This document shows, piece after piece, positions 2-27,775 of a DNA stretch of 36,190 nt. The stretch lies in IMG/VR virus record IMGVR_UViG_3300025769_016511, positions 1 to 36,190 of that record; one strand, 5' to 3'. A program made the position numbers and the translations under genes. Under the pieces are notes generated by a model. That model was not told the DNA's origin. It searched no databases and saw only the letters and a program-made list of their open reading frames with translations. Position 1 is the stretch's first letter, and every line of letters starts with the position of its first letter. This stretch comes from a virus.

Positions 2-3000
2 ATTAAAAATTATCAAGAAATATATTCTGGAAATTATGGTGGATTTTTTGGAAAAGTATCTAATTTTACTTGGTCTTATAATAAAGATGGAACATATGAT
101 ATTACTTTAGATTTAATGTCTATGGGAGATGTAATAGAATCTCTTGTTACTAATATAGGTTTTGAAGGATTAGGAGCAAATGCCGTAGGAGCTTTACAAT
201 CTAATTATGAAAATTTCAAAACAGAGTTTCAATACGGACTTGATAAAACTGAATTCAATAAAAATCCTGATACCGAACTTACAGCTGCGGCAGAATCAGA
301 CTTATTAATAGAAATAGCATCAACAGACGCTTTAACAAATTTTCTTTTTGTAAACCAAATTTCTTTACAAAAAGGAGCAGAAAAAGGTGATTTTTTTAAT
401 ATAAGAGATGCAGCTTATAACCAATATGGAGGAACTATAGTAAGATCAGTTCCCCCTATGAAAAATTATTATGTAAGATTTGGAAAATTATTATCATTTA
501 TAAGATCAAACATATTACCTACAGTAAAAATAGGATCTTCTAAAGAAAATTTAATAGATATAGAAATAAATGAAAACTCATGTATAGTAAGTGCATTTCA
601 AAATCAAGTTTCTTTAGATCCTACAAAAGTATTAATTAACCCAAGATTTAGTCCTGGAATAAATGATCAATTTACTAAAACAGATGACAAACCTGTAGGT
701 CCATTATTTTTAAATAAACTTAAACCTTATACTATTGAAAAAAATGGTGTAATATATGGACAATTAATGAATCTTTATTTAAATACTGATTATATAATAA
801 AGTTAGTTAAAAATAAAAAAAATGATAAAAATCAAGTACCTTTATTTGACTTTTTAAAAGAAATATGTAATACTATTAATAAATCTTTAGGATCTGTAAA
901 TAATATTGAACCAATAATTAAAGATGAAAAAATTATAACTATTATAGATCAAAATCCAATTCCCGGAATTAGTAAAATAGCAGGTGATTTAGGAATTGAA
1001 GGGTATAATAATCCATCTACTGCTATAAATGTTTATGGGTATGGAGAAAAAACAGCTTCTTTTTTAAAAAATATTTCTTTTTCTACAAAAATAGGCCCTG
1101 AATTAGCTACTATGATTACGGTAGGAGCTGCTGCTAGTGGTACTAAAAATTATGATTCTTCTTTATTTAGTAAATGGAATGAAGGACTTAAAGATAGATT
1201 TAATGAAGAAATTGAAGAAGCTGAATATACACCATCTATAGCAGTTAATTCTTCAACGGTTGATATAATAGGTGAAATAAAAGAAGATACTAAATCTATT
1301 GAACGTTTAATTCAATCAAAAAATTCATACCAAAGAGCAAAATATCTTGAAGCAAGTGGTAAAGTAGATATAACTGGAGGAAGTATTTCCTCAGACAGAA
1401 CAGGAAGAAATGTTCTAAGGAAAAAAACTGGAACTACATTAGGTATAATTAATAATTATGAGGATACATTTATAGGATACACCCTCCCAATAAATGAAAA
1501 TGGTAAAACAGCCTATAAGTTTTTCCCAGCTGAAAACTACCCAGATAATTCTGCAGGTTATCAAAGTTTTATACAAGATGCTAGTACTTATTTAAAAGAA
1601 GAACAAGCAAAAGTAACCCAAACCCAAGCAGATATAAAGGCTTCTTTAGAAGCAGTTAAAAATAGTTATGAAGGGTGGTTAGTACAAGCATTTGGTGGTA
1701 CAGCTAAAAAACCAAATAACACATCAGTTAATATTGCATTAACAGGTTCAACTGGAGATGACGATATTGATCAATTAAATCAATCTACTTCAATGATTTC
1801 AGGAGCAGGTGGTGGAGCTGGTTCAGTAAAAATAGATAAAGCAACATGCGAAGGAGAAGGTCAAAGCTCTTATTTTGTTCAATATGAAAATACTAAATAT
1901 TTTAATTTTGAAGAAAATGATTTTTACAGTAGGGGTCAAAAATTATTTAAAGAAGCCCAAAACATAAAAAATATAGAAATTGCTAGTGAAACAAATGCGG
2001 CTTCTAATACTATAGGATTTATTCCTTTAGAATTTAAATTAGATATAGATGGGATGACTGGGTTTAAATTGTATAATTCTTTATTTATAAACCAACAATT
2101 CCTCCCTCAACAGTATCCTAAAGCAATGAAATTTTTAATTACGGCTCATGACCATAAAGTTTCATCAAATGGGTGGACTACTACTTTAAAAACTATTTCT
2201 GTACCTATAACTGAAGCTAACCCTAATATTAGATTAGCAGATCAACTAACACTAGACCAATTACAAGCATTAGAAGCATCATTACCTTCACATCCACTTC
2301 CACCAAACCAAAACCTAGGAACTGGAGGAACATTTGTACCACCAGATGGAACTACATTTGATATATCTAACCCAACAAGTATAGATGTAACATCCCCTTC
2401 AGGTTTTCCAACTATTACTATAAATAAAAAAACTAAACAACCAAAAATAATTGCTGGAAGTAAAAATCAATATCTGAATTATATAGGTGATATTGATAAA
2501 AGACCAGGATTAAAACGTTATTTCTTTGACACAGTTACAAAGAAAACTGCTGTAGTAATCCACCATACAGCTGGTTGGTCTAAAGGAGATAAAGGAAAAG
2601 GTACAAGTGGTGGATGGCAAACCAAAGCAGAAAAAGTAAATTATCCTATTGCTACTCAATATATTATTACTCAAGATGGCCATGTAGAATTATGTTTTAA
2701 TGAAGCATTTTGGTCGTACCATGCTAGTATTGGTACTCAAGATAAATATACTATCGGTATTGAGCTACAAGCTTTAGGGTATATGAAAAGAAAAAAGGAC
2801 AAAAATGGGAATATATATTACGAAAGATCTTCATATGATAAAAAAACAGGTACAACAAAATATACAACAATAAATAAGAAAAATGCTAAAGGCAGAGTTG
2901 TAAGTTCTTTAACAAATGTAGAAGATGTTAATTTAGATACTTTATTTTCCCAACCTGTAGATGAAAATGGAAACATAATTAGTTGGAGGGGTTATGATTA

Positions 3001-3820
3001 TTTCCAAAAATATTCCCCTGAACAACTACAAGCATTAGAAAGAGTACTTAGAGGAATAAAATCTAGACACCCTCAAATAGATTTTACCTACAATTATAAT
3101 CTTCTCTTTCCTAAAAAACCAATATATAATGGAGATCCTAAGAGTAAAAAGTTTATAGGTTTAAAAAATAAAAGTATGGTAATAACCCATAATACTACCA
3201 CAGGAAAGACAGACGTATTCCCACAAAAAGAACTATTATCTTTATTAAAAAGAATGGGTACCGAATTAGGTCCTTCAAAACCATTACCTAATGGAAAATT
3301 TTATGGTCAAGATGGAAATTTTGACTATCAGGTAGCTAATATTACAACAACTGGGGGTAGTGGAACAGCAGCCCAAACAGAAGCTGCTGCTGTAAGTGAA
3401 GCTCAATCTTACAGAAATTTAATGTTAGATATAATAGATAGTGTATATACAGAAGCTAGAGGCCTTTCAGCAGAATTTGGTGGTGTTTTCCAACCAAAAT
3501 CCCTAGGAGATAAAAACGTAGCAGGATCCGAAGTAAATAGATTTTGGTATTCAGCTAATGAATTAAAAAAATTAATTAAAATGGTACCTGATGACCAAGC
3601 TTTAAAATTATTTAAAGATCAATTAAATAATAGTTGGAAAAGAAAAAAATATGCACTTATTAATATAGGAACCAACCCCACACTTAGAGTTTCAGGCAAA
3701 GGAGTAGCAAAATCTCCACCGGGGTATACTAGCCCAAATAATTTTGATAGTGATTTAGAAGAGGCTTGGGAGGGAATGTTTAATAGAGACTCTTTTAGAG
3801 GTGCAACAGTCGATTTTTAA
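2..3820 (+). CDS. Tail/baseplate hub-like protein with embedded N-acetylmuramoyl-L-alanine amidase domain (5' end missing)
   Basis: The frame is open to the left edge, so the true start lies upstream; the first in-frame ATG is at 116 and residues are numbered from it. Residues just before and after it (GFFGKV..FTWSYN.DGTY.I, GDVIESL) and a segment near 650-720 (DIDGMTGFKLYN, LITAHDHKVSSNGWTTTL) resemble baseplate hub proteins of marine T4-like phages (from memory). A PGRP/Amidase_2 domain spans about 810-1040: VVIHHTAG with His816, WSYHAS with His869, GIELQ, and THNTTTGKTD with His1025, Lys1031 and Asp1033. These match the zinc and catalytic positions of AmpD/T7 lysozyme-type amidases. About 60 lysine-rich residues interrupt the domain. 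Gly-rich linkers occur near 565. The likely role is a virion protein that cuts peptidoglycan at DNA entry. The amidase call is strong; the hub call is moderate. Confidence 0.8.
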   Translation: MKNYQEIYSGNYGGFFGKVSNFTWSYNKDGTYDITLDLMSMGDVIESLVTNIGFEGLGANAVGALQSNYENFKTEFQYGLDKTEFNKNPDTELTAAAESDLLIEIASTDALTNFLFVNQISLQKGAEKGDFFNIRDAAYNQYGGTIVRSVPPMKNYYVRFGKLLSFIRSNILPTVKIGSSKENLIDIEINENSCIVSAFQNQVSLDPTKVLINPRFSPGINDQFTKTDDKPVGPLFLNKLKPYTIEKNGVIYGQLMNLYLNTDYIIKLVKNKKNDKNQVPLFDFLKEICNTINKSLGSVNNIEPIIKDEKIITIIDQNPIPGISKIAGDLGIEGYNNPSTAINVYGYGEKTASFLKNISFSTKIGPELATMITVGAAASGTKNYDSSLFSKWNEGLKDRFNEEIEEAEYTPSIAVNSSTVDIIGEIKEDTKSIERLIQSKNSYQRAKYLEASGKVDITGGSISSDRTGRNVLRKKTGTTLGIINNYEDTFIGYTLPINENGKTAYKFFPAENYPDNSAGYQSFIQDASTYLKEEQAKVTQTQADIKASLEAVKNSYEGWLVQAFGGTAKKPNNTSVNIALTGSTGDDDIDQLNQSTSMISGAGGGAGSVKIDKATCEGEGQSSYFVQYENTKYFNFEENDFYSRGQKLFKEAQNIKNIEIASETNAASNTIGFIPLEFKLDIDGMTGFKLYNSLFINQQFLPQQYPKAMKFLITAHDHKVSSNGWTTTLKTISVPITEANPNIRLADQLTLDQLQALEASLPSHPLPPNQNLGTGGTFVPPDGTTFDISNPTSIDVTSPSGFPTITINKKTKQPKIIAGSKNQYLNYIGDIDKRPGLKRYFFDTVTKKTAVVIHHTAGWSKGDKGKGTSGGWQTKAEKVNYPIATQYIITQDGHVELCFNEAFWSYHASIGTQDKYTIGIELQALGYMKRKKDKNGNIYYERSSYDKKTGTTKYTTINKKNAKGRVVSSLTNVEDVNLDTLFSQPVDENGNIISWRGYDYFQKYSPEQLQALERVLRGIKSRHPQIDFTYNYNLLFPKKPIYNGDPKSKKFIGLKNKSMVITHNTTTGKTDVFPQKELLSLLKRMGTELGPSKPLPNGKFYGQDGNFDYQVANITTTGGSGTAAQTEAAAVSEAQSYRNLMLDIIDSVYTEARGLSAEFGGVFQPKSLGDKNVAGSEVNRFWYSANELKKLIKMVPDDQALKLFKDQLNNSWKRKKYALINIGTNPTLRVSGKGVAKSPPGYTSPNNFDSDLEEAWEGMFNRDSFRGATVDF

Positions 3821-3831: not shown

Positions 3832-4548
3832 ATGTATTTTCCTAAATCCCAAATAAAGACAAACCAAATTACCAACGGTGATGAATTTCAATATCTTAAT
3901 TCAGGTATAGAATATGTAGGATATTATTTTACAACATCAACAGGAAAAACATACACAGGAAAAACACCAGATGACACACCTACTAGGGAATTAGTTTTAA
4001 TTAATAATGGGTATGGTGATGAAAAACTAGATGCTGATGATGAAGGTGGAGCTTGGGATAGAGAAGCAAATCATTATTCATTGGATGCTGCATATTTAAA
4101 TTCAACTAAATTAGAATTTTTAGAAAATGCCCCTGTACCTCCTAAACAATGCTATCCAACCCCTACAGAAAAAGACTATCAAAATGGAGAAATTTTAAGG
4201 TTTTTTGCAAGTAAGGTTAATGATCATACAATAATCGAAATTGATGTTGATCAATACAAACTCTTTCAAAACCAAGCTCCATCTACTCAATTTAGATTGT
4301 ATCAAACATTTAATTTATTTTGGCAAATCACAGGAAAGAAAAATGAAGTGTATAATACCAATAGAAATATTGTATTAGCAATTCAAAATAATTTAAAAAT
4401 TCATTCATTTTCCCAATATTTTAAAGGTAAATTTGACCAATTTTGTAATCCTAAAGATAAACTAGAAGCAAAAGCTAAAGAAAATAAAAATCAAGAAACA
4501 GAAAATAAAAATAAAGAATCCCTTGGATATAGCACAAAGGGTTATTAA
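3832..4548 (+). CDS. Hypothetical protein, probably tail-associated
   Basis: This 238-residue protein was not recognised. It starts 11 bases after the hub/amidase gene with an A-rich leader and no Shine-Dalgarno, so it is probably co-transcribed with it. The body is mixed alpha/beta in character with many Tyr, Asn and Gln residues and no obvious membrane segment or signal peptide. The last 35 residues are almost entirely Lys, Glu, Asn and Gln, a low-complexity charged tail. Its position directly after a virion protein suggests a structural or baseplate-assembly role, but nothing in the sequence proves that. Confidence 0.6.
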   Translation: MYFPKSQIKTNQITNGDEFQYLNSGIEYVGYYFTTSTGKTYTGKTPDDTPTRELVLINNGYGDEKLDADDEGGAWDREANHYSLDAAYLNSTKLEFLENAPVPPKQCYPTPTEKDYQNGEILRFFASKVNDHTIIEIDVDQYKLFQNQAPSTQFRLYQTFNLFWQITGKKNEVYNTNRNIVLAIQNNLKIHSFSQYFKGKFDQFCNPKDKLEAKAKENKNQETENKNKESLGYSTKGY

Positions 4549-4571: not shown

Positions 4572-5849
4572 ATGTACTGGCTTGTAGAAAACGAGGAACA
4601 GTTAAATGTTTTAATAAATAGTGGTTATAAAAAGGCTTTCATTGAGGTAATACCTTATAATGATACTATACACCCCGCACAAAATAATGTAAGTTTAGTG
4701 TATATTAGACCGATTAAAGCAAGCAAAGGCTTTATGGTATGTATTACACATAGTGAAGCTTTAAATGCGTTAAATGCGCGTATAAACGATATTTTAAACA
4801 AATTTGAAATATTATATTGTCGTGATAAGAAAGAAATATTACATTATTTTCCATTAAAAGCTCTTTATGACATAAATACACCACCTACTACGTATATACG
4901 ACCTACAACACCTACACATGATTTATATTATAGACAACATAAGGATAATCCGGAATTAAATTTAATTATACCGATTGTTAAACATTATGAAATATGTGAA
5001 ACGATTTTTAGAGATCTAAAAGCGAATATTAACAGACAAAAAACAAAATATGATGACTTCTTTAACAATAAAACCTCAGTGGTATTCAACGCAATCGAGA
5101 GAAGTGGAATACAAATACATAATGAAACCTTCGAAGAATATTTCCATCCCGTTGATGGTAAATCCGTCTACACTCAGTTCAACTTAAAAACAACAACAAC
5201 AAGACCTTCAAATAAATTTAACAATGTAAATTATGCAGCACTTAATAAAGAAAACGGATGTAGGAAATCTTTTATACCTTCTAATGATTGGTTTATTGAA
5301 ATTGATATTAGTGCTTTCCATCCTAGTTTGTCTTGTCGTCTCATCGATTATAGTTTTGCCACTAGTGATATTCACAAGCATCTACAATCACTCTACGGAG
5401 TAAGTTATAAAGAATCAAAGGAATTAACGTTTAAACAGTTATACGGAGGAGTATTTAAACAATATAAACATCTGGAATTTTTTAATAAAATTGATTTATA
5501 TGTAAAAAAAATCTGGAATGAATTTAATAAAAATGGGTTTATAGAATGTCCAATTTCGGGTTTTGTATATACGAAGGAAGGATTGGGTGAAATGAAACCT
5601 CAAAAGTTGTTTAATTATATGTTGCAAAATATGGAAACTTCACAAAATGTTTTGATATTGTGGGATATGTTTTGTATATTGAGGAAATATAAAACGAAGC
5701 TGGTATTATATACTTATGATTCGTTTTTATTTGATTTTAAAGAAGGAGAAGATAAATTATTAAATGAAATTAGAGATATTTTCAAAAAATATAAACTAAA
5801 TATAAAAGAAATAAAAGGTTATGATTACAACTTTGGAGAAACTGCCTAA
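4572..5849 (+). CDS. Short divergent family A (Pol I-like) DNA polymerase
   Basis: This 425-residue protein keeps the order of Pol I polymerase motifs. A thumb-to-palm stretch (FNAIERSGIQIHNETF, 172-187) is followed by a TTTTRPS..FNNVNYAALN segment (207-225) matching the T.TGR.SS..PN.QN region. Motif A is FIEIDISAFHPS with Asp245. The O helix is K283-x3-F287-x3-Y291-G292. Motif C is LYTYDSFLFDF with Asp383, where YDS replaces the usual HDE. The N-terminal 150 residues could be a worn 3'-5' exonuclease fold; its acidic residues were not found. It is much shorter than Pol I (about 930) or T7 polymerase (about 700). It lies just before the gp32-uvsX-gp41 set and overlaps the next gene by 29 bases. 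It could be a repair, lesion-bypass or priming polymerase; activity is inferred. Confidence 0.75.
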   Translation: MYWLVENEEQLNVLINSGYKKAFIEVIPYNDTIHPAQNNVSLVYIRPIKASKGFMVCITHSEALNALNARINDILNKFEILYCRDKKEILHYFPLKALYDINTPPTTYIRPTTPTHDLYYRQHKDNPELNLIIPIVKHYEICETIFRDLKANINRQKTKYDDFFNNKTSVVFNAIERSGIQIHNETFEEYFHPVDGKSVYTQFNLKTTTTRPSNKFNNVNYAALNKENGCRKSFIPSNDWFIEIDISAFHPSLSCRLIDYSFATSDIHKHLQSLYGVSYKESKELTFKQLYGGVFKQYKHLEFFNKIDLYVKKIWNEFNKNGFIECPISGFVYTKEGLGEMKPQKLFNYMLQNMETSQNVLILWDMFCILRKYKTKLVLYTYDSFLFDFKEGEDKLLNEIRDIFKKYKLNIKEIKGYDYNFGETA

Positions 5850-6359: not shown

Positions 6360-7190
6360 ATGGATTTATCAAAACTTAAACAGAAATTGGATACCCTCCA
6401 ATCAAAACCACAGGGTGGCCAAAAGACCGATTACTCATTAATTTATTGGAAACCTACAATAGGTAAACAACAGATTAGAATTGTACCATCAGCGTATGAT
6501 GCTTCAAACCCATTTTCAGAACTTAAGTTCTATTATGGTATTACAAATAAGGTTATGATTTCACCAACAAATTTTGGAGAAAAAGACCCGATTGCTTTAT
6601 TTGCAGGAAAATTACGTGAAGGAGAATACAATAAAGAAAATTATGTTCTAGCTAAGAAATTAGACCCTAAAAACAGGATTTTTGTTCCCGTTGTAGTACG
6701 TGGAGAAGAAGATAAAGGTGTTAGATTATGGCAATTTGGAAAACTAGTATATGAAGAATTATTAGCTCTTGCAGTTGATGATGAAATTGGAGATTATACT
6801 GATATTGTAAATGGTAGAGACCTTACAGTAGAAACAGTAGGACCAGAAGCAACTGGTACTCCTTATAATAAATCATCAGTTAGAGTAAGATTAAAAACAT
6901 CCCCACTTAGTGAAGATGCTTCATTAGTAGAAAAATGGACAAACGAGCAACCAAATCCTAAAGGGGATTTATTTAAACGTTATTCATTTGACGAAATGAA
7001 AGTAGCACTAGAAAAATGGTTATCCCCAGAAGAAGATGATTTAGAAGAAATAGCTCCAGCTCCGGTTGCATCAAAATCTCAAACAAACTTTAGTTTAGAT
7101 ACTTCAAAAGCTAAACAAAGTAAAGGAGATAAATTTGATTCATTATTTGATGATAAATCTAGTAATAATGGTGATGATCTTCCTTTCTAA
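6360..7190 (+). CDS. 32: Single-stranded DNA-binding protein, gp32-like
   Basis: This 276-residue protein would coat single-stranded DNA during replication and recombination. The N-terminus (LKQKLDTLQ) resembles the gp32 self-interaction region. The core (YWKPTIGKQQIRIVPS, residues about 29-45, then LKFYYG, RIFVPVVVRGEEDKG, LWQFGK) is typical of gp32 proteins of marine T4-like phages. The C-terminus is acidic and ends DDLPF. There is no cysteine anywhere, so the zinc finger of T4 gp32 is absent. The DDLPF tip looks like the tail of bacterial SSB (DDDIPF), which docks partner proteins. It is the first gene after a promoter-like site and lies 2 bases before uvsX. Confidence 0.88.
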   Translation: MDLSKLKQKLDTLQSKPQGGQKTDYSLIYWKPTIGKQQIRIVPSAYDASNPFSELKFYYGITNKVMISPTNFGEKDPIALFAGKLREGEYNKENYVLAKKLDPKNRIFVPVVVRGEEDKGVRLWQFGKLVYEELLALAVDDEIGDYTDIVNGRDLTVETVGPEATGTPYNKSSVRVRLKTSPLSEDASLVEKWTNEQPNPKGDLFKRYSFDEMKVALEKWLSPEEDDLEEIAPAPVASKSQTNFSLDTSKAKQSKGDKFDSLFDDKSSNNGDDLPF

Positions 7191-7192: not shown

Positions 7193-8266
7193 ATGGCAAA
7201 AAAGATAGCAAAGTCTCTCTCGGCAGCAGTGTCTGCCGAGATTAAGAGCAAATTTGATTTAAATAAATTTAAATCGTCTAAAGGTTTAAATAAAAATGTC
7301 AAATTTAAGGACCAACAGTGGATACCACTATCCCCTGCTTTTCAAAAGGTTGCTGGGGTACCTGGCATACCAATGGGGCATATTTCTTTACTTAGAGGAC
7401 ACTCTGACACCGGTAAAACTACTGCGTTATTAGAAGCAGCAGTATCAGCTCAAAATATGGGAATACTTCCTGTATTTATTATTACTGAAATGAAATGGAA
7501 TTGGGAACATGCAGCCCAAATGGGTTTAGAAGTTAATTTAATTAAAGATGATGAAGGTGATGTTGTAGATTACGAAGGTAATTTTATTTATGTAGATAGA
7601 GAAACTTTACATACTATTGAAGATGTAGCAGCATTTATTATGGATTTACAGAATGAACAGAAAAAAGGTAATTTACCTTATGACTTAGCATTTTTCTGGG
7701 ATTCAATTGGATCTATCCCTTGTGCAATGTCAGTTGAAAAACTGAAAAACAACAATGAATGGAATGCAGGAGCAATGTCAACTCAATTTGGTAATACAGT
7801 TAATCAGAGTATTGTAATGTCTCGTAAAGAATCATCACCATATACTAATACATTAATTGCAGTTAATAAAGTTTGGACAGCAAAAGCTGAATCCCCTATG
7901 GGTCAGCCAAAAATGATGAATAAAGGTGGAATGGCAATGTGGTATGATGCTACATTTGTAGTTACATTTGGTAATATTTCAAATGCTGGTACATCTAAAA
8001 TTAAAGCAATCAAAGGTGGTATGCAGGTAGAATGGGGTAAAAGAACAAATTTACAAATTGATAAAAACCATGTTAATGGTATGCAATCAAGAGGTAAAAT
8101 TGTTATGACAAACCATGGTTTTATCCAAGATACAGACAAAGATAAAAATGAGTATAAAAAATCTCATGCTGATGAATGGTCAAAAATCTTAGGGGGAGGA
8201 CAATTTAAGATTGTAGAAGACCAAGAAGATACAACACCTGTACTTTACGACGTACAAGACTTATAA
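7193..8266 (+). CDS. uvsX: UvsX RecA-like recombinase
   Basis: This 357-residue protein is the ATP-dependent strand-exchange recombinase used in T4-type recombination-dependent replication. The Walker A motif is GHSDTGKTT (69-77) and Walker B is LAFFWDSIG with Asp170. The surrounding pattern (VFIITEMKWNWEHAAQMG, then NTLIAVNKVW) is that of UvsX. The length is close to T4 UvsX (about 390). The start 2 bases after the gp32 stop gives tight coupling with the SSB. A perfect GC-rich stem-loop lies in codons 9-17, unusual in this AT-rich genome, and may affect early translation. Confidence 0.93.
   Translation: MAKKIAKSLSAAVSAEIKSKFDLNKFKSSKGLNKNVKFKDQQWIPLSPAFQKVAGVPGIPMGHISLLRGHSDTGKTTALLEAAVSAQNMGILPVFIITEMKWNWEHAAQMGLEVNLIKDDEGDVVDYEGNFIYVDRETLHTIEDVAAFIMDLQNEQKKGNLPYDLAFFWDSIGSIPCAMSVEKLKNNNEWNAGAMSTQFGNTVNQSIVMSRKESSPYTNTLIAVNKVWTAKAESPMGQPKMMNKGGMAMWYDATFVVTFGNISNAGTSKIKAIKGGMQVEWGKRTNLQIDKNHVNGMQSRGKIVMTNHGFIQDTDKDKNEYKKSHADEWSKILGGGQFKIVEDQEDTTPVLYDVQDL
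7218..7241 (+). other. Perfect 9-bp stem-loop inside the start of uvsX
   Basis: TCTCGGCAG at 7218-7226 pairs perfectly with CTGCCGAGA at 7233-7241 around a 6-base loop (CAGTGT). It begins 25 bases after the uvsX start codon. The stem is GC-rich, whereas the surroundings are about two-thirds A+T or more. It could tune translation or mRNA stability; it could also be chance in a coding sequence. Confidence 0.5.
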
Positions 8267-8274: not shown

Positions 8275-9315
8275 ATGAAACGCAAAGAATTATTTAACTT
8301 GCTGGACGCTGTTCAGGAAGACCAGGAAGAATCTATCCCAAAAAAACACGATAGGGTATTAATTTTAGATGGCTTAAATTTATTTTTTAGAAATTTTGCT
8401 ATGATGAATATGGTTAATCCCGATGGTGTTCATATTGGGGGGTTAGGTGGATTTTTCCGCTCTTTGGGTGCAATGATTAGACAAACAAATCCTACATCTG
8501 TTTATGTAGTATTCGACGGAGCAGGTTCAACGGTAAACCGTAAGAACTTGCTCTCCGAATACAAAGGAACAAGAAATTTACAGCGAATTACTAATTGGGA
8601 AGCATTTGATAATATTGAGGAAGAACATGACTCAAAAATTGACCAAATAGTGCGTATAATCCAATATTTAAAGCTATTACCTGTTAAAACCACCATACTC
8701 GATAAAGTCGAAGCTGATGATATTATAGCCGTGTTAGCTGAAAAACTAGTAGAAAAACATAATTCAACTTGTTTTATAGTATCTAGTGATAAGGACTTTT
8801 TACAATTGGTAACTGACAAAATTATTGTTTATAGACCAATGGAAAAAGAATATTATACCCCCAAAGTTATAGAAGAAAAAATCGGTTTATTACCTTCAAA
8901 TTTTATTTTACATAAAACATTATTAGGAGATAATTCGGATAATATTCAAGGGATTAAGGGGTTAGGTGCTAAAGGTATATTTAAAAAATTCCCTGAGTTA
9001 AAGACAAAACATTTAACATTAGATGACATTTTTGATATATCTGCTAGGAAATTCAAAGAACACGTTGTATATTCACGCATAATTCAGGATAAAGCTCGAA
9101 TTGAAACTAATTATAAAGTTATGGATTTAAGTGTTCCAATGATAGATGATAAAGGAAAAAAACATATAGATAATTTAATAGTAGAAGATTTTCCTGAACA
9201 TAACCCTGAAATGTTTATCCAATTTTATAATGAAGATAAACTAGGTGGAATGATTAGAAATTTAGAAACATGGTTAAAAGATATATTTTCACAATTTAAA
9301 GGTTATAAAGATTGA
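8275..9315 (+). CDS. rnh: RNase H / 5'-3' flap exonuclease (T4 Rnh-like)
   Basis: This 346-residue member of the FEN/PIN 5'-nuclease family would remove RNA primers and 5' flaps. Acidic metal-binding motifs appear in order: LILDGLNLFFR (Asp32), VVFDGAGSTVNRK (Asp81), the helical-arch EYKGTRN (95-101), KVEADDII (Glu146, Asp148, Asp149), SSDKDFLQL (Asp172, Asp174) and GDNSDNIQGIKGLGAKG, the helix-hairpin-helix region. The length is close to T4 RNase H (305). It sits between uvsX and the gp41 helicase, and its TGA stop overlaps the TTG start of gp41. Confidence 0.9.
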   Translation: MKRKELFNLLDAVQEDQEESIPKKHDRVLILDGLNLFFRNFAMMNMVNPDGVHIGGLGGFFRSLGAMIRQTNPTSVYVVFDGAGSTVNRKNLLSEYKGTRNLQRITNWEAFDNIEEEHDSKIDQIVRIIQYLKLLPVKTTILDKVEADDIIAVLAEKLVEKHNSTCFIVSSDKDFLQLVTDKIIVYRPMEKEYYTPKVIEEKIGLLPSNFILHKTLLGDNSDNIQGIKGLGAKGIFKKFPELKTKHLTLDDIFDISARKFKEHVVYSRIIQDKARIETNYKVMDLSVPMIDDKGKKHIDNLIVEDFPEHNPEMFIQFYNEDKLGGMIRNLETWLKDIFSQFKGYKD

Positions 9316-10685
9316 CACTAAACAGTATAAACCAGTACGGACACGAATTTCAAATAAAGGTTTTATCATCTTTATTAACTCATAAGGAGTTTTTAGTTAA
9401 TATACATGATATTATTTCTGATGAATATTTTGAAAATCCCGCTCAAAAATGGGCTATTAAGGAAGTTTTAAGGTATTATGACAAATACCATACTACCCCC
9501 TCATTAGATATTTTAAAAGTAGAATTATTAAAAGTAGATAATGAAGTTTTACAATTATCTATTAAAGAACAACTTAAATTAGCATATGTAACTTCAGATG
9601 ATGATTTAGAATATGTACAAGAAGAATTTACAAATTTTTGTAAAAACCAACAACTAAAAAAAGCATTAATGTCCTCTGTAGATTTACTTAAAGGAGGAGA
9701 TTTTGATGGTATTCGTTATTTAATAGATAATGCTTTAAAAGCAGGTCAAGATAAAAATATAGGACATGAATATGTTAAAGATATTGAAGAACGTTATAGA
9801 GAAAATTCAAGAGAAACTGTTCCTACCCCTTGGCCTAAAATTAACCAATTATTACAAGGTGGACTTGGAAATGGAGATTTTGGCCTTATATTTGGTAATC
9901 CAGGAGGTGGTAAATCTTGGTCATTAGTAGCTATAGGAGGACATGCAGTTAGATTAGGGTATAATGTACTTCATTATACTTTAGAGTTAGGTGAAGAATA
10001 TGTTGGAAAAAGATATGATGCTTTCTTTACTAAAATACCAGTTAATAAAGTAGATTCACATAGAGATAAAATCGAAGATATAATACCTCAATTGCCAGGT
10101 CAGCTTATTATTAAAGAATACCCAACAGGGAGGGCATCTGTCTCAACAATTGAATCACATATTGCGAAAAGCACAAGCATGGGAGTTAAACCAGATCTGG
10201 TAATTATTGACTATGTAGATTTACTTTCATCAAGAAAAACAAATCGTGAGCGTAAGGATGAAATTGATGATATTTATACAAGTACTAAGGGATTAGCTAG
10301 ACAACTTAATATACCTATTTGGTCAGTTTCTCAAGTTAACCGTGCAGGTGCTCAGGATAAAGTTATCCAGGGAGATAAAGCAGCAGGATCATATGATAAA
10401 ATTATGATAACTGATTTTTGTATGTCTTTATCTCGTAAAAAAGAAGACAAAGTTAATAATACAGGAAGATTTCATTTAATGAAAAACCGATATGGTATGG
10501 ATGGAATTACTTTTGGATTAGAAGCTGATACTTCTACTGGGCATTTTATTGTTAAAGATGAATATGTTGAAGGTGAAGAATCTGAAAATTTTGAACCTTC
10601 TTTAAAGTCTAATAAGTTTGATACTGATGTAGACACTTTTGATAAACAATTGTTACGAAAGAAATTTTTTGAATTAAACTCTTAA
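9312..10685 (+). CDS. 41: Replicative DNA helicase, gp41/DnaB-like
   Basis: This 457-residue hexameric 5'-3' helicase has a DnaB-like N-terminal helical domain (1-130) and a RecA-like motor. Walker A is GNPGGGKS (195-202), Walker B is PDLVIIDYVDLLSS (near 294-307), and a sensor-like WSVSQVNRAG follows. T4 gp41 is 475 residues. The start is a TTG in a TTGA overlap with the rnh stop. It is favoured because N-terminal sequence typical of the family (INQYGHEFQIKVLSSLL) begins immediately, and no nearby ATG would keep it. Confidence 0.92.
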   Translation: MTLNSINQYGHEFQIKVLSSLLTHKEFLVNIHDIISDEYFENPAQKWAIKEVLRYYDKYHTTPSLDILKVELLKVDNEVLQLSIKEQLKLAYVTSDDDLEYVQEEFTNFCKNQQLKKALMSSVDLLKGGDFDGIRYLIDNALKAGQDKNIGHEYVKDIEERYRENSRETVPTPWPKINQLLQGGLGNGDFGLIFGNPGGGKSWSLVAIGGHAVRLGYNVLHYTLELGEEYVGKRYDAFFTKIPVNKVDSHRDKIEDIIPQLPGQLIIKEYPTGRASVSTIESHIAKSTSMGVKPDLVIIDYVDLLSSRKTNRERKDEIDDIYTSTKGLARQLNIPIWSVSQVNRAGAQDKVIQGDKAAGSYDKIMITDFCMSLSRKKEDKVNNTGRFHLMKNRYGMDGITFGLEADTSTGHFIVKDEYVEGEESENFEPSLKSNKFDTDVDTFDKQLLRKKFFELNS

Positions 10686-19719: not shown

Positions 19720-20508
19720 ATGGCACATTGTGTAGTAAGTTTAAGTGGTGGAATGGATAGCAGCACCCTATTGTTAAGAGCTATCAATGAATACGATACA
19801 GTAACAGGTATCTCTTTTGATTACGGTCAAAAACATAAAGTAGAGCTAGAAAGAGCTCAATCATTAATTGATTACCTTGCAAGTAAAGGTCACAAAGTAA
19901 ATTATCGTCAAATTAAACTAGATGGATTAGTAGATTTACTAGATTCTGCATTAGTAGAAGGTGGAGATGATGTACCTGAAGGACATTATGAACAAGATAA
20001 TATGAAAGAAACAGTTGTTCCTAATAGAAATAAAATGTTTGCTTCTATTACTCAAGCAGTAGCATTATCTGTAGCAAATAAAAAAGAAGATGTCTGTGAT
20101 ATTGCTTTAGGAATTCATGCTGGTGATCATGCAGTTTATCCTGATTGTAGACAAGAATTTAGAGATGCAGATGATGCAGCTTTTAGAATGGGAAATTGGG
20201 ATGCTGATAAAGTAGGTTATTTTACTCCTTATTTAAATACTGATAAATTTGGTATTTTACAAGATGGAGAAATATTATGTAACAAATTAAATATTGAATT
20301 CGATGAAGTCTATTCTAGAACTAATACTAGTTATAAGCCTTTTCCTAGTGGGAACAGTGATTATAAATCTGCTTCATCTGTTGAACGAATTGAAGCTTTT
20401 ATTGCGTTGGGTAGGAAAGACCCTGTACAATATGAAGACGAAACTGGTCCAGTAGATTATGAAGTAGCGAAAGCCCATGTAGTTCAAGTTCTTGCTGAAT
20501 ATGTATAG
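19720..20508 (+). CDS. queC: 7-cyano-7-deazaguanine (preQ0) synthase QueC, without zinc cysteines
   Basis: This 262-residue enzyme of the PP-loop ATP-pyrophosphatase family converts 7-carboxy-7-deazaguanine to preQ0. The PP-loop is SGGMDSS (9-15), followed by FDYGQKH (33-39), PNRN (101-104), GIHAGDHAVYPDCR (131-144) and VERIEAFIALGRKDP (221-235). The zinc site normally has one Cys in a WSCY-like motif and a CxxCxxC just before VER. Here these read NTSY (Ser204) and GNSDYKSASS (211-220), so all four cysteines are gone. The fold must be held without zinc, or the chemistry may have shifted. It is in the same block as queD, queE and folE. Confidence 0.9.
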   Translation: MAHCVVSLSGGMDSSTLLLRAINEYDTVTGISFDYGQKHKVELERAQSLIDYLASKGHKVNYRQIKLDGLVDLLDSALVEGGDDVPEGHYEQDNMKETVVPNRNKMFASITQAVALSVANKKEDVCDIALGIHAGDHAVYPDCRQEFRDADDAAFRMGNWDADKVGYFTPYLNTDKFGILQDGEILCNKLNIEFDEVYSRTNTSYKPFPSGNSDYKSASSVERIEAFIALGRKDPVQYEDETGPVDYEVAKAHVVQVLAEYV

Positions 20509-20536
20509 TAATATATAAATTAAATAATTATTAGCA

Positions 20537-20680
20537 ATGCAAAAATCAGAACAAACAAACGGTAATACTCAATTGAATACTGAAAGAGACCAACTTAATA
20601 AGAGAGTTAGCAAATTTAGTATGTTAAGTAAATCTAAGAAAGTACAGTGGGACGGAATGAGAAGACATCGTACCATTTAA
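20537..20680 (+). CDS. Tiny basic protein
   Basis: This 47-residue frame starts at an ATG with an A/T-rich leader 28 bases after queC. It is polar, Asn/Gln-rich at the N-terminus and basic at the C-terminus (KSKKVQWDGMRRHRTI). No family was recognised. It fills an otherwise empty gap in a tightly packed block, and its end overlaps the possible N-terminus of the next small gene. Confidence 0.45.
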   Translation: MQKSEQTNGNTQLNTERDQLNKRVSKFSMLSKSKKVQWDGMRRHRTI

Positions 20681-20694
20681 TTTTAGGAGAGGCA

Positions 20695-20883
20695 GTGAAA
20701 AAATTTATAGAATTTTCTTTAATATGGTATAGTCAACAAATGGCAATCCCCTTTTGGGTTGTAGGTCATGTTCACCTTAGTATAAATACTTATAAAGACA
20801 TTCATGAAATAATTGCTAGTTTAGGTTTAAACCTCTTAGTAGCAATTGGGTTTATAATAGATTATAAAAAAAATGGGAAATAA
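20695..20883 (+). CDS. Small membrane protein, uncertain start
   Basis: This 62-residue protein (from the GTG at 20695) has two hydrophobic parts, WYSQQMAIPFWVVGHVHLSI and SLGLNLLVAIGFIIDY, and ends KKNGK. A GTG at 20647 would extend it into the preceding gene. The 20695 start is preferred because it limits the overlap and is preceded by AGGAG, one of the few Shine-Dalgarno-like sequences here. It overlaps the next small gene by 11 bases. No function was recognised. Confidence 0.5.
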   Translation: MKKFIEFSLIWYSQQMAIPFWVVGHVHLSINTYKDIHEIIASLGLNLLVAIGFIIDYKKNGK

Positions 20884-21043
20884 AAAACAAGAATTACCAG
20901 ATGCAAGAAAGCATCAACAAATAAGTTTCATTAAATCAGGTATCCGTATTTTAGGTTATGGAGCTTTATGGTGGAGCTTGGATATTGCAGTTACTTTACT
21001 TATATTGAGTGAAATAGTTGGAATAGGAGAAGAATTAGTATAA
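20873..21043 (+). CDS. Small conserved-looking membrane protein
   Basis: This 56-residue protein (MGNKKQELPDARKHQQISF...) has a basic N-terminus and one hydrophobic segment (about 27-50, LGYGALWWSLDIAVTLLILSEIVG), ending GEELV. Similar short proteins with a GYxALWW-like segment occur in marine phages, from memory. It overlaps the preceding small membrane protein by 11 bases and lies 16 bases before the thioredoxin gene. Together the two could form a small membrane complex; no function is known. Confidence 0.6.
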   Translation: MGNKKQELPDARKHQQISFIKSGIRILGYGALWWSLDIAVTLLILSEIVGIGEELV

Positions 21044-21059
21044 CAATTAAAAATTAAAT

Positions 21060-21302
21060 ATGAATAAAATTTATTATTTTAGTGCACCCTGGTGTGGTCC
21101 ATGTAAAATGTTAGGACCTGTAATGGATAAAAGTGGGTTACCTTTCCAAAAAATTAATGTAGATAATGATTCAACATTATCAGCTAAATATGGAATTAGA
21201 AATGTTCCTACTTTAGTAAAAGTAGATGCTAATGGAAATGAAATTAGTAGATTAGTAGGTAATAATCCTTTAGATAAAATTAAAATTTGGTATAATGGGT
21301 AA
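21060..21302 (+). CDS. Thioredoxin/glutaredoxin-like protein
   Basis: This 80-residue protein is a compact thioredoxin with the classical active site APWCGPCKM (Cys12, Cys15) and the cis-proline in VRNVPTLV-like sequence (RNVPTLVKVD). No signal peptide, so it is cytosolic. It is shorter than E. coli thioredoxin (108) and close to T4 NrdC (87). It could reduce the C-terminal cysteines of NrdA at 11686 or support redox steps elsewhere. Its end overlaps queD by 8 bases. Confidence 0.9.
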   Translation: MNKIYYFSAPWCGPCKMLGPVMDKSGLPFQKINVDNDSTLSAKYGIRNVPTLVKVDANGNEISRLVGNNPLDKIKIWYNG

Positions 21303-21759
21303 ATTTCAATCAAGCAAAGTATTTGACGGTTTTTCTACAGTATTCCGTCAATGGAAAGCAGAAACAACTCACTGTAGATTTGTACATGGTTATGGAATTT
21401 CATTTAAAGTATATTTTGAAGGAGAATTAGATGAAAGAAATTGGGTATGGGATTTTGGTGGAATGAAAAGAGCTAAAACTTTAATTGATGGTAAACAACC
21501 AAAAGCATGGATGGATTATATGTTTGATCATACTATGATTATAGCTGAAGATGATCCTGAAGTAAAAGCATTTCAACAAATGGAAGTTGCTGGTGTAGCC
21601 CAAGTGAGAATAATCCCAGCTACTGGTGCAGAAAAATTTGCTGAATATATTTATACTAAATTAAATAGTTTTGTTAAAGCTGAAACCGATAATCGAGTAA
21701 GAGTAACGAGAGTGAAATTTATGGAACACGGGAAAAATGCAGCAAGTTATAGTGAATAA
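21295..21759 (+). CDS. queD: 6-carboxytetrahydropterin synthase QueD-like
   Basis: This 154-residue member of the PTPS/QueD family makes 6-carboxytetrahydropterin from dihydroneopterin triphosphate, step two of 7-deazaguanine synthesis. Visible are FRQWKAETTHCRFVHGYG (His26, Cys27, His31), VWDFGGMKRAK (Asp53) and YMFDHTMII (Asp78, His79). In textbook QueD the zinc triad ends HGH; here it is HGY (Tyr33), a form remembered from other marine phages. His26 may replace the lost ligand. It is sandwiched between thioredoxin and queE with overlaps on both sides. Confidence 0.85.
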   Translation: MGKFQSSKVFDGFSTVFRQWKAETTHCRFVHGYGISFKVYFEGELDERNWVWDFGGMKRAKTLIDGKQPKAWMDYMFDHTMIIAEDDPEVKAFQQMEVAGVAQVRIIPATGAEKFAEYIYTKLNSFVKAETDNRVRVTRVKFMEHGKNAASYSE

Positions 21760-22588: not shown

Positions 22589-22731
22589 TGGACAAAGAAG
22601 AGGCATTAGAAATATTAGAAGAAATAGCAGATAATGTACATACATGCTGTGCCATAACAATGGAACCAGATGAAGTATTAGTATTAATAGATAAATTAAA
22701 AAGTTATATAGAAAATGGAGAACAAACGTAG
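22588..22731 (+). CDS. Tiny acidic protein between queE and folE
   Basis: A 47-residue frame starts at GTG in a TAGTG overlap with the queE stop and overlaps folE by 17 bases. It is acidic and helical (EEALEILEEIADNV, DEVLVLIDKLKSYIENGE) with a Cys-Cys pair (20-21). It fills the only gap between queE and folE, and the coupled start is typical of this genome. No family was recognised. Confidence 0.5.
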   Translation: MDKEEALEILEEIADNVHTCCAITMEPDEVLVLIDKLKSYIENGEQT

Positions 22732-23950: not shown

Positions 23951-24466
23951 ATGAACAAACAATTAAAATTATTTTCAGAAGAAGAATTACCTGTATGGGT
24001 TAATGAAGTTCCGTTTGTATCGGAAGTAGAAACTTTTAATCGTACGTTCGGAAAACCAAATAATTATGAGCCAACAATACCAGAAAAAAAGGAATGGCAA
24101 TTCGTATACGACTTTATACTTGAAGAATTGGAAGAATATAGACAAGCTTGCGAAAACGGAGACATCGTGGAAGTTTTGGATGCTTTGTGTGATATTACTT
24201 ACGTTTCCCTTGGGAACGGTACTATGTTACACGGTCTTAAAGATAAGATATGGCCAGCGTATCAAGAAGTACAAGCAAGTAATATGTCGAAGTCTTGTAG
24301 CACTGAAGAAGAAGCCATGGAAACTGTCACCCTCCGCTCTAAAGAACAAGCTGAGCCATGTCATTATGAGCAAGTGGAGAAAAGATTCGTAGTATATAGA
24401 ACAAGAGATAGAAAAGTTATGAAATCAATTAATTACTTTAGACCAGATTTAAAACAATTCTTTTAA
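23951..24466 (+). CDS. MazG-like nucleotide pyrophosphohydrolase
   Basis: This 171-residue all-alpha NTP-PPase has ExxE (Glu58-Glu61/62 in FILEELEEYRQ) and ExxD (Glu74-Asp77, then Asp81, in DIVEVLDALCDITYVSLG). The C-terminus (VEKRFVVYRTRDRKVMKSINYFRPDL) is the usual phage MazG tail. It would hydrolyse NTPs or alarmones to tune the nucleotide pool. Codons from about 24000 to 24370 are clearly GC-richer than in neighbours, with CTC, CGC and ACC choices, a possible sign of recent acquisition or gene conversion. The last base of its stop is the first base of the polymerase ATG. Confidence 0.82.
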   Translation: MNKQLKLFSEEELPVWVNEVPFVSEVETFNRTFGKPNNYEPTIPEKKEWQFVYDFILEELEEYRQACENGDIVEVLDALCDITYVSLGNGTMLHGLKDKIWPAYQEVQASNMSKSCSTEEEAMETVTLRSKEQAEPCHYEQVEKRFVVYRTRDRKVMKSINYFRPDLKQFF

Positions 24467-26208
24467 TGTATAAAAAGTGTTATCAAGGTAAAAAATTAGG
24501 ACATAATGTTTGGGAAATGCATCTTTGGGAAGAAGATAAAGGTCATCAAGTTATTCCTTATGAAAATATAGCATATCAAGAATGTAAGGAAGGTGAACAC
24601 ACAAATATTGGATTAAATGGTGAATATTTAAAACATACAAATAATTGGTATTTCTCAAAAAACCCTAATTATAGTGATAAAAATACTCCTGGTCTTCATT
24701 TTCATGATATGAAACTTCATCAAAAATTCCTAGTTGAAAGATATGGAATTAATGATGTACCTTCTACAGGACATAGAGAAGTATTTTTTGATATTGAGTG
24801 TGAAATTGGAGGGGCATTAACTGAAGAATATATTGAAAGTGCCCCAATGCCTATTACATCAATTGCTTGGTGGGATAAAACACCAGATACTTGGCATATT
24901 TTAATTCTTGATAAAAAGAATCAACTTAAACATACTAAAGCTAGAAATAAAGAAATTATACCTTGCAGTACTGAAAGTCAATTACTAGCTAAATTCATTG
25001 AAATAATTAGAGATATAGATCCCGATATTTTAATTGGTTATAATTCAGATTATTTTGACATACCTTATTTATATTATAGAATGTGTAATACAATAGGTAA
25101 GGAATTTGCTGATCATTTATCACCTTTAGGTAAAGTAGAATCTAAAAAATTCTCTAAATTTTTCTATAAACGAAATCAGTTTGTTGATATTATAGGAGTT
25201 GAATCACTTGATTATATTCGTTTACATAAAAAATATAGTTGGAAAGATGAACCAAGTTGGAAACTAGATGCTATTGGAGAGAAATATGTTGGTATGAATA
25301 AAGTTGAGTATGAAGGAAATTTAGATCAACTATTTGAAACCGATATACAAAAGTTTATTCAATATAATTTTGTTGATGTTGAAATACTTCAAAAATTAGA
25401 TGAAAAGCTACAATATATTGCTTTAACTAAAAACTTATCACATAAAGGTAAACATAACTACAGTGAAGTTTATTCTAATAGTGTAACCCAAGACGGAGCA
25501 ATTTCAGCTTATTTATTATCTCAAAATATAATCCCACCACCTAAAGAACCTAACCCTCAAAAGAAAGATGGTTATGCTGGAGGATACCTTTTTTGCCCCA
25601 AAGCGGGATTATACAAGTATATGTTTGATGAAGATTTAACATCACTGTATCCATCTATAATTATGTCGATTAACATTGGTAAAGAAACATTCGTGGGTCG
25701 TATTATAGATGCAGATGATCGTAATAATAGATTGGGCCTTAACGATTTAAAAGAACGTAATCCTAAAGATTTATTATTAGTTGAAAATGGAAAACGACGT
25801 CATACTAATGTTGAAGCTGGAGAATTAGTGAAAATAATTGAATCACAAAATTTAGCTGTAGCAGCTAATGGTTCAATGTTCAGAACAGATAAAGAAGCAG
25901 TATTATCAACTATACTTAAAAAATGGTTTGAAGAACGTGTTTTATATAAAGGGCGTATGAAAAAAGCATATAAGTCTGGGGATAAAGAAGCAGGTGAGTA
26001 TAATCATTTAATGCAATACACAATGAAAATTTTGCTTAATAGTTTATATGGAGCCACAGCTTTACCTTCATTTAGGTACGGAATGAACCAATCAATATTA
26101 AGTGAAGCAATTACATTATCTGGCCACAGAATTATACAAGAATCAGCTCTTTGCGCTAATAGACATATGAATAAAGTTATGCGTGGGGAATTAAAATTAG
26201 AAATATAA
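24466..26208 (+). CDS. 43A: Family B DNA polymerase, N-terminal part (exonuclease, palm, fingers)
   Basis: This 580-residue protein holds the front part of a T4 gp43-like replicative polymerase. Exonuclease motifs are VFFDIEC (Asp109, Glu111), ILIGYNSDYFDIPYL and FVDVEILQKLD. Polymerase motif A is DEDLTSLYPSI (Asp390) and motif B is MKILLNSLYGAT (520-531). It ends about 50 residues after motif B, before motif C, which is in the gene at 26840. The reading frame closes cleanly (TAATG with the next gene), so this is an organised gene split rather than decay. Split gp43A/gp43B genes are known in Aeromonas phages 44RR2.8t and 25. Trans-assembly of the two proteins is inferred. Confidence 0.93.
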   Translation: MYKKCYQGKKLGHNVWEMHLWEEDKGHQVIPYENIAYQECKEGEHTNIGLNGEYLKHTNNWYFSKNPNYSDKNTPGLHFHDMKLHQKFLVERYGINDVPSTGHREVFFDIECEIGGALTEEYIESAPMPITSIAWWDKTPDTWHILILDKKNQLKHTKARNKEIIPCSTESQLLAKFIEIIRDIDPDILIGYNSDYFDIPYLYYRMCNTIGKEFADHLSPLGKVESKKFSKFFYKRNQFVDIIGVESLDYIRLHKKYSWKDEPSWKLDAIGEKYVGMNKVEYEGNLDQLFETDIQKFIQYNFVDVEILQKLDEKLQYIALTKNLSHKGKHNYSEVYSNSVTQDGAISAYLLSQNIIPPPKEPNPQKKDGYAGGYLFCPKAGLYKYMFDEDLTSLYPSIIMSINIGKETFVGRIIDADDRNNRLGLNDLKERNPKDLLLVENGKRRHTNVEAGELVKIIESQNLAVAANGSMFRTDKEAVLSTILKKWFEERVLYKGRMKKAYKSGDKEAGEYNHLMQYTMKILLNSLYGATALPSFRYGMNQSILSEAITLSGHRIIQESALCANRHMNKVMRGELKLEI

Positions 26209-26573
26209 TGGAAAGTCAATTTGATTGGGTAATAACAAAAAAACAAAAACCTTGGGGTTGGTATGAAGTATTATTAGATTCACCTGAATGTAAAGTAAAA
26301 CGAATAACAATAAACCCAGGTCAAAGATTATCATACCAATACCATAGCAAAAGAAAAGAAACATGGACTGTAGTTAAAGGTAATTTAACAATTATTTTAG
26401 ATGATGATAAATTATTCAGAGGGCCGGGACAATCAATAAAAATAAGTTTAGGAGATAAACATAGAGCTTGGAATGAAACTGAAGAAATAGTTCAATTTAT
26501 AGAAGTTCAAACCGGAACTTATTTCGGAGAAGATGATATTGTTAGAGTAGAAGACGATTATAACAGAAAATAA
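26208..26573 (+). CDS. Cupin, phosphomannose isomerase type II-like, inside the polymerase split
   Basis: This 121-residue protein matches the C-terminal cupin of mannose-6-phosphate isomerase/GDP-mannose pyrophosphorylase. Its parts are PWGWYEVLLDSPECKVKRITINPGQRLSYQYHSKRKETW, VVKGNLTII, GDKHRAWNE, and IEVQTGTYFGEDDIVRVEDDY. Metal-binding His/Glu are in YQYHSKRKE and KHRAW. It may make or modify a sugar phosphate for capsule, lipopolysaccharide or DNA glycosylation. It overlaps the polymerase front half by one base (TAATG) and has no link to replication in known families, so it looks like an insertion into the polymerase locus. Confidence 0.85.
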   Translation: MESQFDWVITKKQKPWGWYEVLLDSPECKVKRITINPGQRLSYQYHSKRKETWTVVKGNLTIILDDDKLFRGPGQSIKISLGDKHRAWNETEEIVQFIEVQTGTYFGEDDIVRVEDDYNRK

Positions 26574-26574
26574 T

Positions 26575-26838
26575 ATGGCATTAAAAAAACAATCAATTAG
26601 AAATAACATGCACATAACAGTGGATGGAAAAGAAATAATTAAAGATGATTTAATACTTTTAAGTGAAGAATGGAATGAAACCCAAGAAAACTTTTTTAGA
26701 AAAATGTTAAGGCAAGGCGGACATTTTAGATTAAAAGGCCGTAAATTTATAGTTGAATTAAAAGAAAGAGCAGATTTAGATTCAAATGGTGACAAACCAG
26801 TTAACTTACCCCCAATCCCAGGAGAAAGATCATTTTAA
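26575..26838 (+). CDS. Hypothetical protein inside the polymerase split
   Basis: This 87-residue protein was not recognised. It is basic in the middle (FFRKMLRQGGHFRLKGRKFIVEL) and Pro-rich at the end (PVNLPPIPGERSF). It begins 1 base after the cupin gene and ends 1 base before the polymerase back half. No HNH, GIY-YIG or LAGLIDADG motif is visible, so it is not an obvious homing endonuclease. It might bridge the two polymerase parts or simply be a passenger. Confidence 0.65.
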   Translation: MALKKQSIRNNMHITVDGKEIIKDDLILLSEEWNETQENFFRKMLRQGGHFRLKGRKFIVELKERADLDSNGDKPVNLPPIPGERSF

Positions 26839-26839
26839 A

Positions 26840-27775
26840 ATGAAACATTTAGAAGAAACACCTTGGTGGATATGTGATGCAGATGATGAAAATTATTGTG
26901 CATATGTGGATACTGACTCTAATTATTTTAATGCTGAACCTATATTACTTCACTTATATCCTAATTTTGAAGAATTTAGTGATAAAGAAAAGGATGATAT
27001 TTTAGAAAAAGTAGCACTTAAATATCAAGATGTTATTACAGATCATTATGATATTTTAGCTAAGGAATGTTTCAATGTCTCAGAACATAGACTTGAAATG
27101 AAAACTGAGTGTGTAATTAGATCTGCTTATTTTAGAGCAACAAGGCGTTACGCACAATGGATTACTAAACAAGAAGGTATTGAAAAAGAAACTTTAGATA
27201 TTAAAGGTTTAGAGTTTATGAAAGCAAATTTCCCACCTATTTTAGGGGAATTTTTTAATGACATACTCCAACAAGTACTTAAAGGTGAAGAAAAATCAAG
27301 TATAATTGATCAAATTAAAGTATTTAAAAAACAAATATTAGGTGGTAAAATATCATTAGCAAAATTAGGCAACCCTACAGCTGTTAAAAAATTAGAAAAA
27401 TACTCAGGTACGAGTGCTAGAGCAGGTGAGATGTTTACTGAAATCCTTAAAGGAGCTCCTGCACCTGTAAGAGCAGCTATTAGATATAATGATTTATTAA
27501 AATTATGGAAATTAGATAGAAAACATAATTTAATAACAATGGCTGATAAAGTAAAATGGATTTATTGTAAAGATAATCCCTATAAAATAGAAGCATTAGC
27601 ATTTTTTGATTATGATATACCAGAAAAGGTTCAAGACTTTTTAAATAGATATGCTGACAGACAAAAAGTATTTGATTCAATACTATTAAATAAATTAGAA
27701 GGTTTTTTTAGTGATTTGCAATGGTCATTAGATTTAAATCCTTACACAAATGCACTAAGTTCCTTTGAAATTTAA
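26840..27775 (+). CDS. 43B: Family B DNA polymerase, C-terminal part (palm motif C and thumb)
   Basis: This 311-residue protein starts at ATG 26840 and reaches motif C, YVDTDSNYF, within about 22 residues; its DTD aspartates complete the catalytic site begun by Asp390 of the front half. A KxxY-like region (TECVIRSAYFRATRRYAQWI) and a thumb domain follow, and the end (LNPYTNALSSFEI) may be the clamp-binding tail, by analogy with gp43. An upstream in-frame ATG at 26786 is rejected because it runs inside the 87-residue gene. It is immediately followed by the promoter and gene of the sliding clamp. Confidence 0.92.
   Translation: MKHLEETPWWICDADDENYCAYVDTDSNYFNAEPILLHLYPNFEEFSDKEKDDILEKVALKYQDVITDHYDILAKECFNVSEHRLEMKTECVIRSAYFRATRRYAQWITKQEGIEKETLDIKGLEFMKANFPPILGEFFNDILQQVLKGEEKSSIIDQIKVFKKQILGGKISLAKLGNPTAVKKLEKYSGTSARAGEMFTEILKGAPAPVRAAIRYNDLLKLWKLDRKHNLITMADKVKWIYCKDNPYKIEALAFFDYDIPEKVQDFLNRYADRQKVFDSILLNKLEGFFSDLQWSLDLNPYTNALSSFEI

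Follow-up and report, generated by a model that had tools for sequence, protein, structure and literature searches.

A predicted thumbless family A DNA polymerase of the divPolA1 type and its strictly linked partner gene in the replication cassette of a marine T4-like phage

The closest described counterparts of the polymerase analysed here are the divPolA1 proteins, which were described bioinformatically in 2024 in 14 genomes of 155 to 190 kb, including that of the Flavobacterium phage vB_FspM_immuto (hereafter immuto). According to the main text of that report (PMC11348598), divPolA1 proteins retain the palm residues of family A polymerases, their thumb is truncated and their exonuclease is inactivated, a regular polymerase is encoded elsewhere in the genome, and replication genes lie downstream; the same text suggests a role for them in replication. 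It also describes divPolA2 of barbaviruses, an extra enzyme beside a family B polymerase which lacks an exonuclease and a standard thumb and which has an N-terminal domain of its own and a variable gene neighbourhood. Among the other deviating family A enzymes, the polymerase of Thermus phage Tt72 is full-length, with a thumb, a strong 3'-5' exonuclease and a Glu at the steric gate, and it carries a native Ser in place of E883 of Escherichia coli Pol I (PMC9324360), while TV-Pol is a small family A relative without an exonuclease, with a two-helix thumb and an RxxxK finger motif (PMC2579912). The minimal split Pol III alpha of group 2.2 jumbo phages is a reduced polymerase of a second family, family C, which accompanies a T4-like family B replicase (PMC7824862).

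We analysed a stretch of 36,190 nucleotides, hereafter the window (positions 1 to 36,190 of the IMG/VR record IMGVR_UViG_3300025769_016511), which is a 36-kb fragment of a marine T4-like phage (Table 1). A preliminary description made from the letters of the window had noted a short family A polymerase in a phage that also has a family B polymerase and had read its divergent motif C and small size as signs of a specialised enzyme for repair, gap filling, bypass of modified bases or priming. The observation is confirmed by our analysis, well above anything chance would give, and the interpretation is supported in part. D245, K283, F287, Y291, G292 and D383 (in YDS) each lie where that description placed them, and the catalytic residues it named are invariant or near-invariant among 116 diverse homologues.

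Table 1 Coordinates of the polymerase gene, its predicted internal features and the neighbouring and co-occurring replication genes in the window
Feature	Coordinates	Strand	Details
divPolA1-type family A polymerase ORF	4572..5849	+	425 aa, ATG start
Predicted Pol I 3'-5' exonuclease remnant, residues 1-134	4572..4973	+	VIA alignment; no DxE motif I
Link in the thumb's place, residues 180-210	5109..5201	+	G179 to R211 = 32 residues
TTTTRPSN (207-214), counterpart of TATGRLSS	5190..5213	+	R211 = R668; R211 in 116/116
Motif A DISAFHPSL (245-253)	5304..5330	+	D245 = D705; H250 at steric-gate position E710
Fingers O-helix YKESKELTFKQLYG (279-292)	5406..5447	+	K283 = K758, F287 = F762, Y291 = Y766, Y279 at R754
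Motif C YTYDSFLFD (380-388)	5709..5735	+	Y382 at H881, D383 = D882, S384 at E883
Partner ORF, 155 aa	5821..6288	+	overlaps polymerase gene by 29 nt; invariant HRK...NTLY.IN.LN core
gp32-type single-strand DNA-binding protein	6360..7190	+	PF08804, phrog_1192
UvsX/RecA-type recombinase	7193..8266	+	phrog_97
5'-3' exonuclease (Pol I N-domain / FEN type)	8275..9315	+	PF02739 7.6e-35
gp41/DnaB-type replicative helicase	9312..10685	+	PF03796, phrog_19
Family B polymerase, N-terminal part (exonuclease, motifs A and B)	24466..26208	+	580 aa; SLYPS, KILLNSLYG
Family B polymerase, C-terminal part (motif C DTDS)	26786..27775	+	329 aa

The polymerase open reading frame is a genuine gene under purifying selection, since IMG/VR contains many homologues that share its start and its length, the close ones numbering at least 67, and the pairwise dN/dS values against 18 close homologues lie between 0.23 and 0.34. 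Nineteen of the close homologues were aligned and are 73 to 82% identical. Scans of the window polymerase alone against Pfam and PHROG gave nothing useful, with the PF00476 model unmatched, and a phmmer search against the PDB returned a chance match only, so that family profiles were needed. Homologues were gathered by peptide patterns containing motif A or motif C, either of which alone was sufficient; relatives were encoded in 583 of the 600 pattern matches, and members caught through one motif alone still have the catalytic residue of the other. The profile set consisted of the window protein and 113 diverse homologues (114 members, 26 to 80% identity), and residue counts were made over 116 members. 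Relatives carrying divPolA1 occur in records of up to 157-158 kb and in one of 484 kb. A bacterial chromosomal origin was also considered: the genome_contigs search found the polymerase in no isolate genome, and the seven contigs that carry it all belong to metagenome-assembled genomes. Promoter and terminator scans remained at chance level.

The assignment to family A, with a core of two aspartates, is borne out by several lines of comparison. The 114-member profile matched E. coli Klenow in the PDB (E=5.5e-8), pairing D245 with D705, K283 with K758, Y291 with Y766 and D383 with D882, and the other PDB matches listed were Pol I and Pol theta chains only. In agreement with the profile search, hhalign of the family against E. 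coli Pol I gave E=6.1e-8, and VIA-align placed residues 1-422 of the AlphaFold2 model (pLDDT 94.5, pTM 0.92) on residues 300-875 of the Bst large fragment of Pol I, with a Z score of 26.6 and 3.4 A over 390 of the 425 residues. Foldseek searches with the model likewise retrieved family A polymerases, with a TMq of 0.78 to E. coli Pol I, and among the profile and fold matches listed there were DNA polymerases only and no RNA polymerase relatives. From this superposition and from their place on the palm strand and hairpin of the model, we infer that D245 and D383 meet in space. PF00476 is matched individually by 60 of the 114 family members, the immuto homologue passes its cut-off (42.7 against 34.3 bits), and the window protein has the Pol I fold together with the motif A Asp, the K, F and YG of the O-helix and the motif C Asp that belong to this family.

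The N terminus, which had been called degenerate, is the remnant of a dead 3'-5' exonuclease domain, an identity that had been overlooked. None of the 116 members has a D/E pair at columns 25-27, inactivation having been scored at the motif I columns. The thumb, whose loss had likewise escaped notice, is gone altogether, as judged from both the short spacing between G179 and R211 and the late start of the PF00476 match. This spacing ranges from 20 to 40 residues in the family and from 124 to 231 in ordinary family A polymerases (124 in E. coli Pol I, between G544 and R668, 214 in the full family A enzyme of immuto and 231 in HTVC033P), and the match begins at or after about model position 98 in the short members and at 25 or 55 in full enzymes. 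In the predicted structure, the long antiparallel helix pair is absent from the thumb region. The length of 425 residues, which had been combined with motif C into a sign of specialisation, is instead explained by the loss of the thumb and the shrinkage of the dead exonuclease domain.

Compared with E. coli Klenow (PF00476), the family shares the palm and fingers fold and has counterparts of D705, K758, F762, Y766, D882, R668 and Q849, whereas it is without the thumb and the exonuclease site, and the positions of E710, R754, H881 and E883 are taken by His, mostly Tyr, Tyr, and Ser or Ala, respectively. D245, D383, K283, R211, Q352, H250, Y382 and Y380 are each present in 116 of 116 members, while position 384 (E883) is Ser in 88 and Ala in 28, and position 279 (R754) is Tyr in 103 and Arg in 4. 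The preliminary description had remarked on motif C and missed the further replacements of Pol I active-site residues that the alignments indicate, namely E710 by His, H881 by Tyr and, mostly, R754 by Tyr. Its reading of the DS of motif C as a mark of specialisation is not supported, as the Tt72 polymerase is active with a Ser at the same place: there, the S616A variant kept 76% and the E389A variant 35% of the activity, while both Asp variants fell to 4% (PMC9324360). The native Ser of Tt72 and these two variants make a Ser at E883 and the loss of E710 compatible with activity.

All the testable features of divPolA1 are found in the window, and we regard its polymerase as a further member of this already published family. 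The thumb is truncated (a spacing of 32 against 124 in E. coli), the 3'-5' exonuclease domain is present, as the Bst alignment shows, but inactivated, without the DxE of motif I, the palm residues D245, D383 and K283 are conserved in 116 of 116 members, an additional regular polymerase is present as the split family B enzyme, and the replication genes for gp32, UvsX, the exonuclease and gp41 follow downstream. The window polymerase shares 37.2% identity over 93% with the immuto protein annotated "DNA polymerase family A" (E=6e-80), which a profile search recovers at 6.8e-134. The ordinary Pol I features E710, R754, the HDE of motif C and the thumb are lacking, and it is because of the His, the mostly Tyr, the YD(S/A) and the missing thumb that we file the protein under the divergent subfamily divPolA1 and not under ordinary Pol I. 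Compared with the immuto protein, the window member is more divergent, having no Pfam match on its own, and it is accompanied by a split family B polymerase.

The other described enzymes are more distant. Like divPolA2, the window polymerase is an extra enzyme beside a family B polymerase, but the N-terminal domain of divPolA2 is unrelated to the exonuclease-like one found here, and its variable surroundings, as the main text of PMC11348598 has them, differ from the fixed neighbourhood of the window polymerase. The family differs from TV-Pol in being thumbless and in having mostly YxxxK in the fingers, and from the Tt72 polymerase in its reduced architecture and its His at the steric gate; the minimal split Pol III alpha is alike as a reduced second polymerase of a phage with a T4-like replicase and unlike in its unrelated fold.

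In the window, the polymerase gene is followed by the 155-aa open reading frame and the genes for gp32, UvsX, the 5'-3' exonuclease, gp41 and ribonucleotide reductase. This order is widely kept: among 117 loci with 6 kb of downstream sequence, gp32 was found in 113, UvsX in 110 and a RecA-type protein in 2, the 5'-3' exonuclease in 110 and gp41 in 101. The linkage of the 155-aa partner, which the preliminary description had overlooked, is strict. A partner homologue is present in 192 of the 193 polymerase loci with 3 kb of downstream sequence, directly adjacent in 107 of them, and, conversely, the polymerase is present in each of the 67 partner loci for which upstream DNA exists, a set made up of the partners closest to that of the window. 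As an independent check, among 50,697 phage records the 6 with the polymerase are also the 6 with the partner. Of the 20 large records, 19 have one copy of the partner and the other is a contig truncated next to the gene, and in 140 of 228 loci the next open reading frame of any kind begins ahead of the polymerase stop. The model of the partner has a pLDDT of 75.6, its fold search gave no Foldseek match below E 0.08, and its best VIA match, the origin-binding domain of SV40 T-antigen at Z 6.3, falls in the range of common arrangements. The main text of PMC11348598 discusses neither this linkage nor the His and Tyr substitutions of the active site; the partner linkage and the invariant substitutions, neither of which was found in the literature searched, are thus what is new here.

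The family B polymerase announced in the preliminary description is present in the same phage, but it is split over two open reading frames, which had gone unmentioned. Between the two parts lie an open reading frame for a PF01050 cupin/mannose-6-phosphate isomerase C-terminal domain (26208-26573) and one of 87 aa; a like split (about 575-584 aa and about 320 aa) is found in the related contigs G005, G016 and G017, and G001 has an N-terminal part of 556 aa. A family B polymerase was detected in 14 of 20 large records, all of which carry the short polymerase and most of which are incomplete contigs. The immuto genome, in which no family B match was found, encodes instead a full-length family A polymerase with an exonuclease (L068, 37898-40231), near GroES/GroEL. 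The main replicase, of family B in most records and a full-length family A polymerase in immuto, has been exchanged while the short enzyme stays. Since the carrier phages also encode a full replicative polymerase, the short enzyme is accessory, as had been proposed.

The explanation that we favour, with a probability of roughly 0.55, is that the gene encodes an active, non-proofreading, thumbless accessory polymerase of the divPolA1 type which works beside the main replicase, most likely in gap filling. We infer polymerase activity from the intact metal ligands, and the invariance of D245, D383, K283, R211 and Q352 argues for catalysis. Pol I holds duplex DNA by gripping its minor groove; lacking this grip, such an enzyme would extend 3' ends over short distances, and the joint absence of thumb and exonuclease would result in short, error-tolerant synthesis of low processivity. 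Together with the neighbouring 5'-3' flap exonuclease it may in effect do the work of a Pol I divided over two proteins and close the gaps that remain after primer removal or that occur in the recombination intermediates of UvsX and gp32. It would act with gp32, UvsX, the flap endonuclease and gp41, and its recruitment or its retention on DNA may be the task of the partner. We favour gap filling in cooperation with the flap exonuclease because the permanent neighbours are genes of recombination-dependent replication and primer removal. Against this explanation, R754, E710, H881 and E883 are replaced all together. Moreover, the gene order as such would indicate shared regulation or function and does not single out gap filling; taken alone, the conserved replication neighbourhood could equally well reflect a central replication role, as the main text of PMC11348598 suggests. 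For such a role, for example in lagging-strand synthesis or in starting up the leading strand before handing over to the main replicase, speaks the place of the gene in a stable replication cassette while the main polymerase lies elsewhere and is swapped, as that text also describes, but long synthesis is unlikely without thumb and proofreading, and the window has a clamp loader and the split family B polymerase, so that we find this role doubtful. At the other extreme, a protein without catalytic activity, retained as a scaffold for contacts with other proteins, would agree with the several replaced active-site residues and the decay of the other domains; a pseudo-enzyme would, however, be expected to lose the catalytic aspartates and the counterparts of K758, R668 and Q849, which are invariant in 116 members down to 26% identity, and we deem a scaffold very improbable.

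Two of the more specialised functions put forward in the preliminary description fare less well than gap filling and repair. Bypass of lesions or modified bases, in which an open, exonuclease-dead and thumbless site would copy past damage or 7-deazaguanine, would fit the lost proofreading and grip, which are typical of bypass polymerases, and queuosine-type 7-deazaguanine genes are present in the window, in immuto and in several relatives. In the window, these are the QueC, QueD, QueE and GTP cyclohydrolase genes at 19720-23410, which suggest a 7-deazaguanine modification of the DNA, and in immuto genes are annotated as DpdA and QueF. However, the carriers Mel-JY01 and LR756508 have the polymerase and no QueC or QueE match, which argues against modified G as the general reason for keeping it, and bypass seems to us unlikely. 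We judge similarly improbable a priming or mixed-sugar enzyme, whose His gate and missing thumb would admit NTPs and allow short RNA/DNA primers to be started or extended on single strands, for example in UvsX D-loops. It could draw on H250, present in 116 of 116 members: a His at the sugar-selecting position raises the use of NTPs in human PrimPol Y100H and contacts the 2'-OH in MtPolDom (PMC6362072), both enzymes of a different fold, so that the comparison with PrimPol reaches from one fold to another, and the invariant His gate is a lead towards a possibly relaxed sugar choice. Members of 362-455 aa leave little room for an additional primase or zinc domain, and a DnaG-type (gp61) primase is encoded in 9 of 20 large records, including all three genome-length ones (immuto, Mel-JY01 and LR756508), which disfavours the replacement of a primase. 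A bolder possibility, which we put forward tentatively and regard as rather doubtful, is that polymerase and partner are obligate subunits of one enzyme: the partner would replace the thumb in grip or processivity and the His gate would relax sugar selection, so that recombination intermediates would receive patches or primers of mixed RNA and DNA.

A family known from 14 genomes in one paper becomes a widespread phage module, which has a named partner gene and whose metagenomic members number in the hundreds. As a natural thumbless Pol I, it would reveal the contribution of the thumb and tell whether this can be taken over by another protein, and it indicates that a T4-like replisome can retain an extra polymerase in its recombination and replication cassette despite the exchange of the main replicase.

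Upstream of the polymerase, the window has a 1234-aa open reading frame (116-3820), which includes a short endolysin-like stretch at residues 805-886 and has relatives ahead of the polymerase in many loci, and a 238-aa open reading frame without a family match (3832-4548), whose relatives precede the short polymerase in 155 of 199 loci. A phage GroEL (phrog_5725) is encoded at 30445-32088; according to the main text of PMC11348598, a GroEL-type neighbourhood surrounds the regular polymerases.
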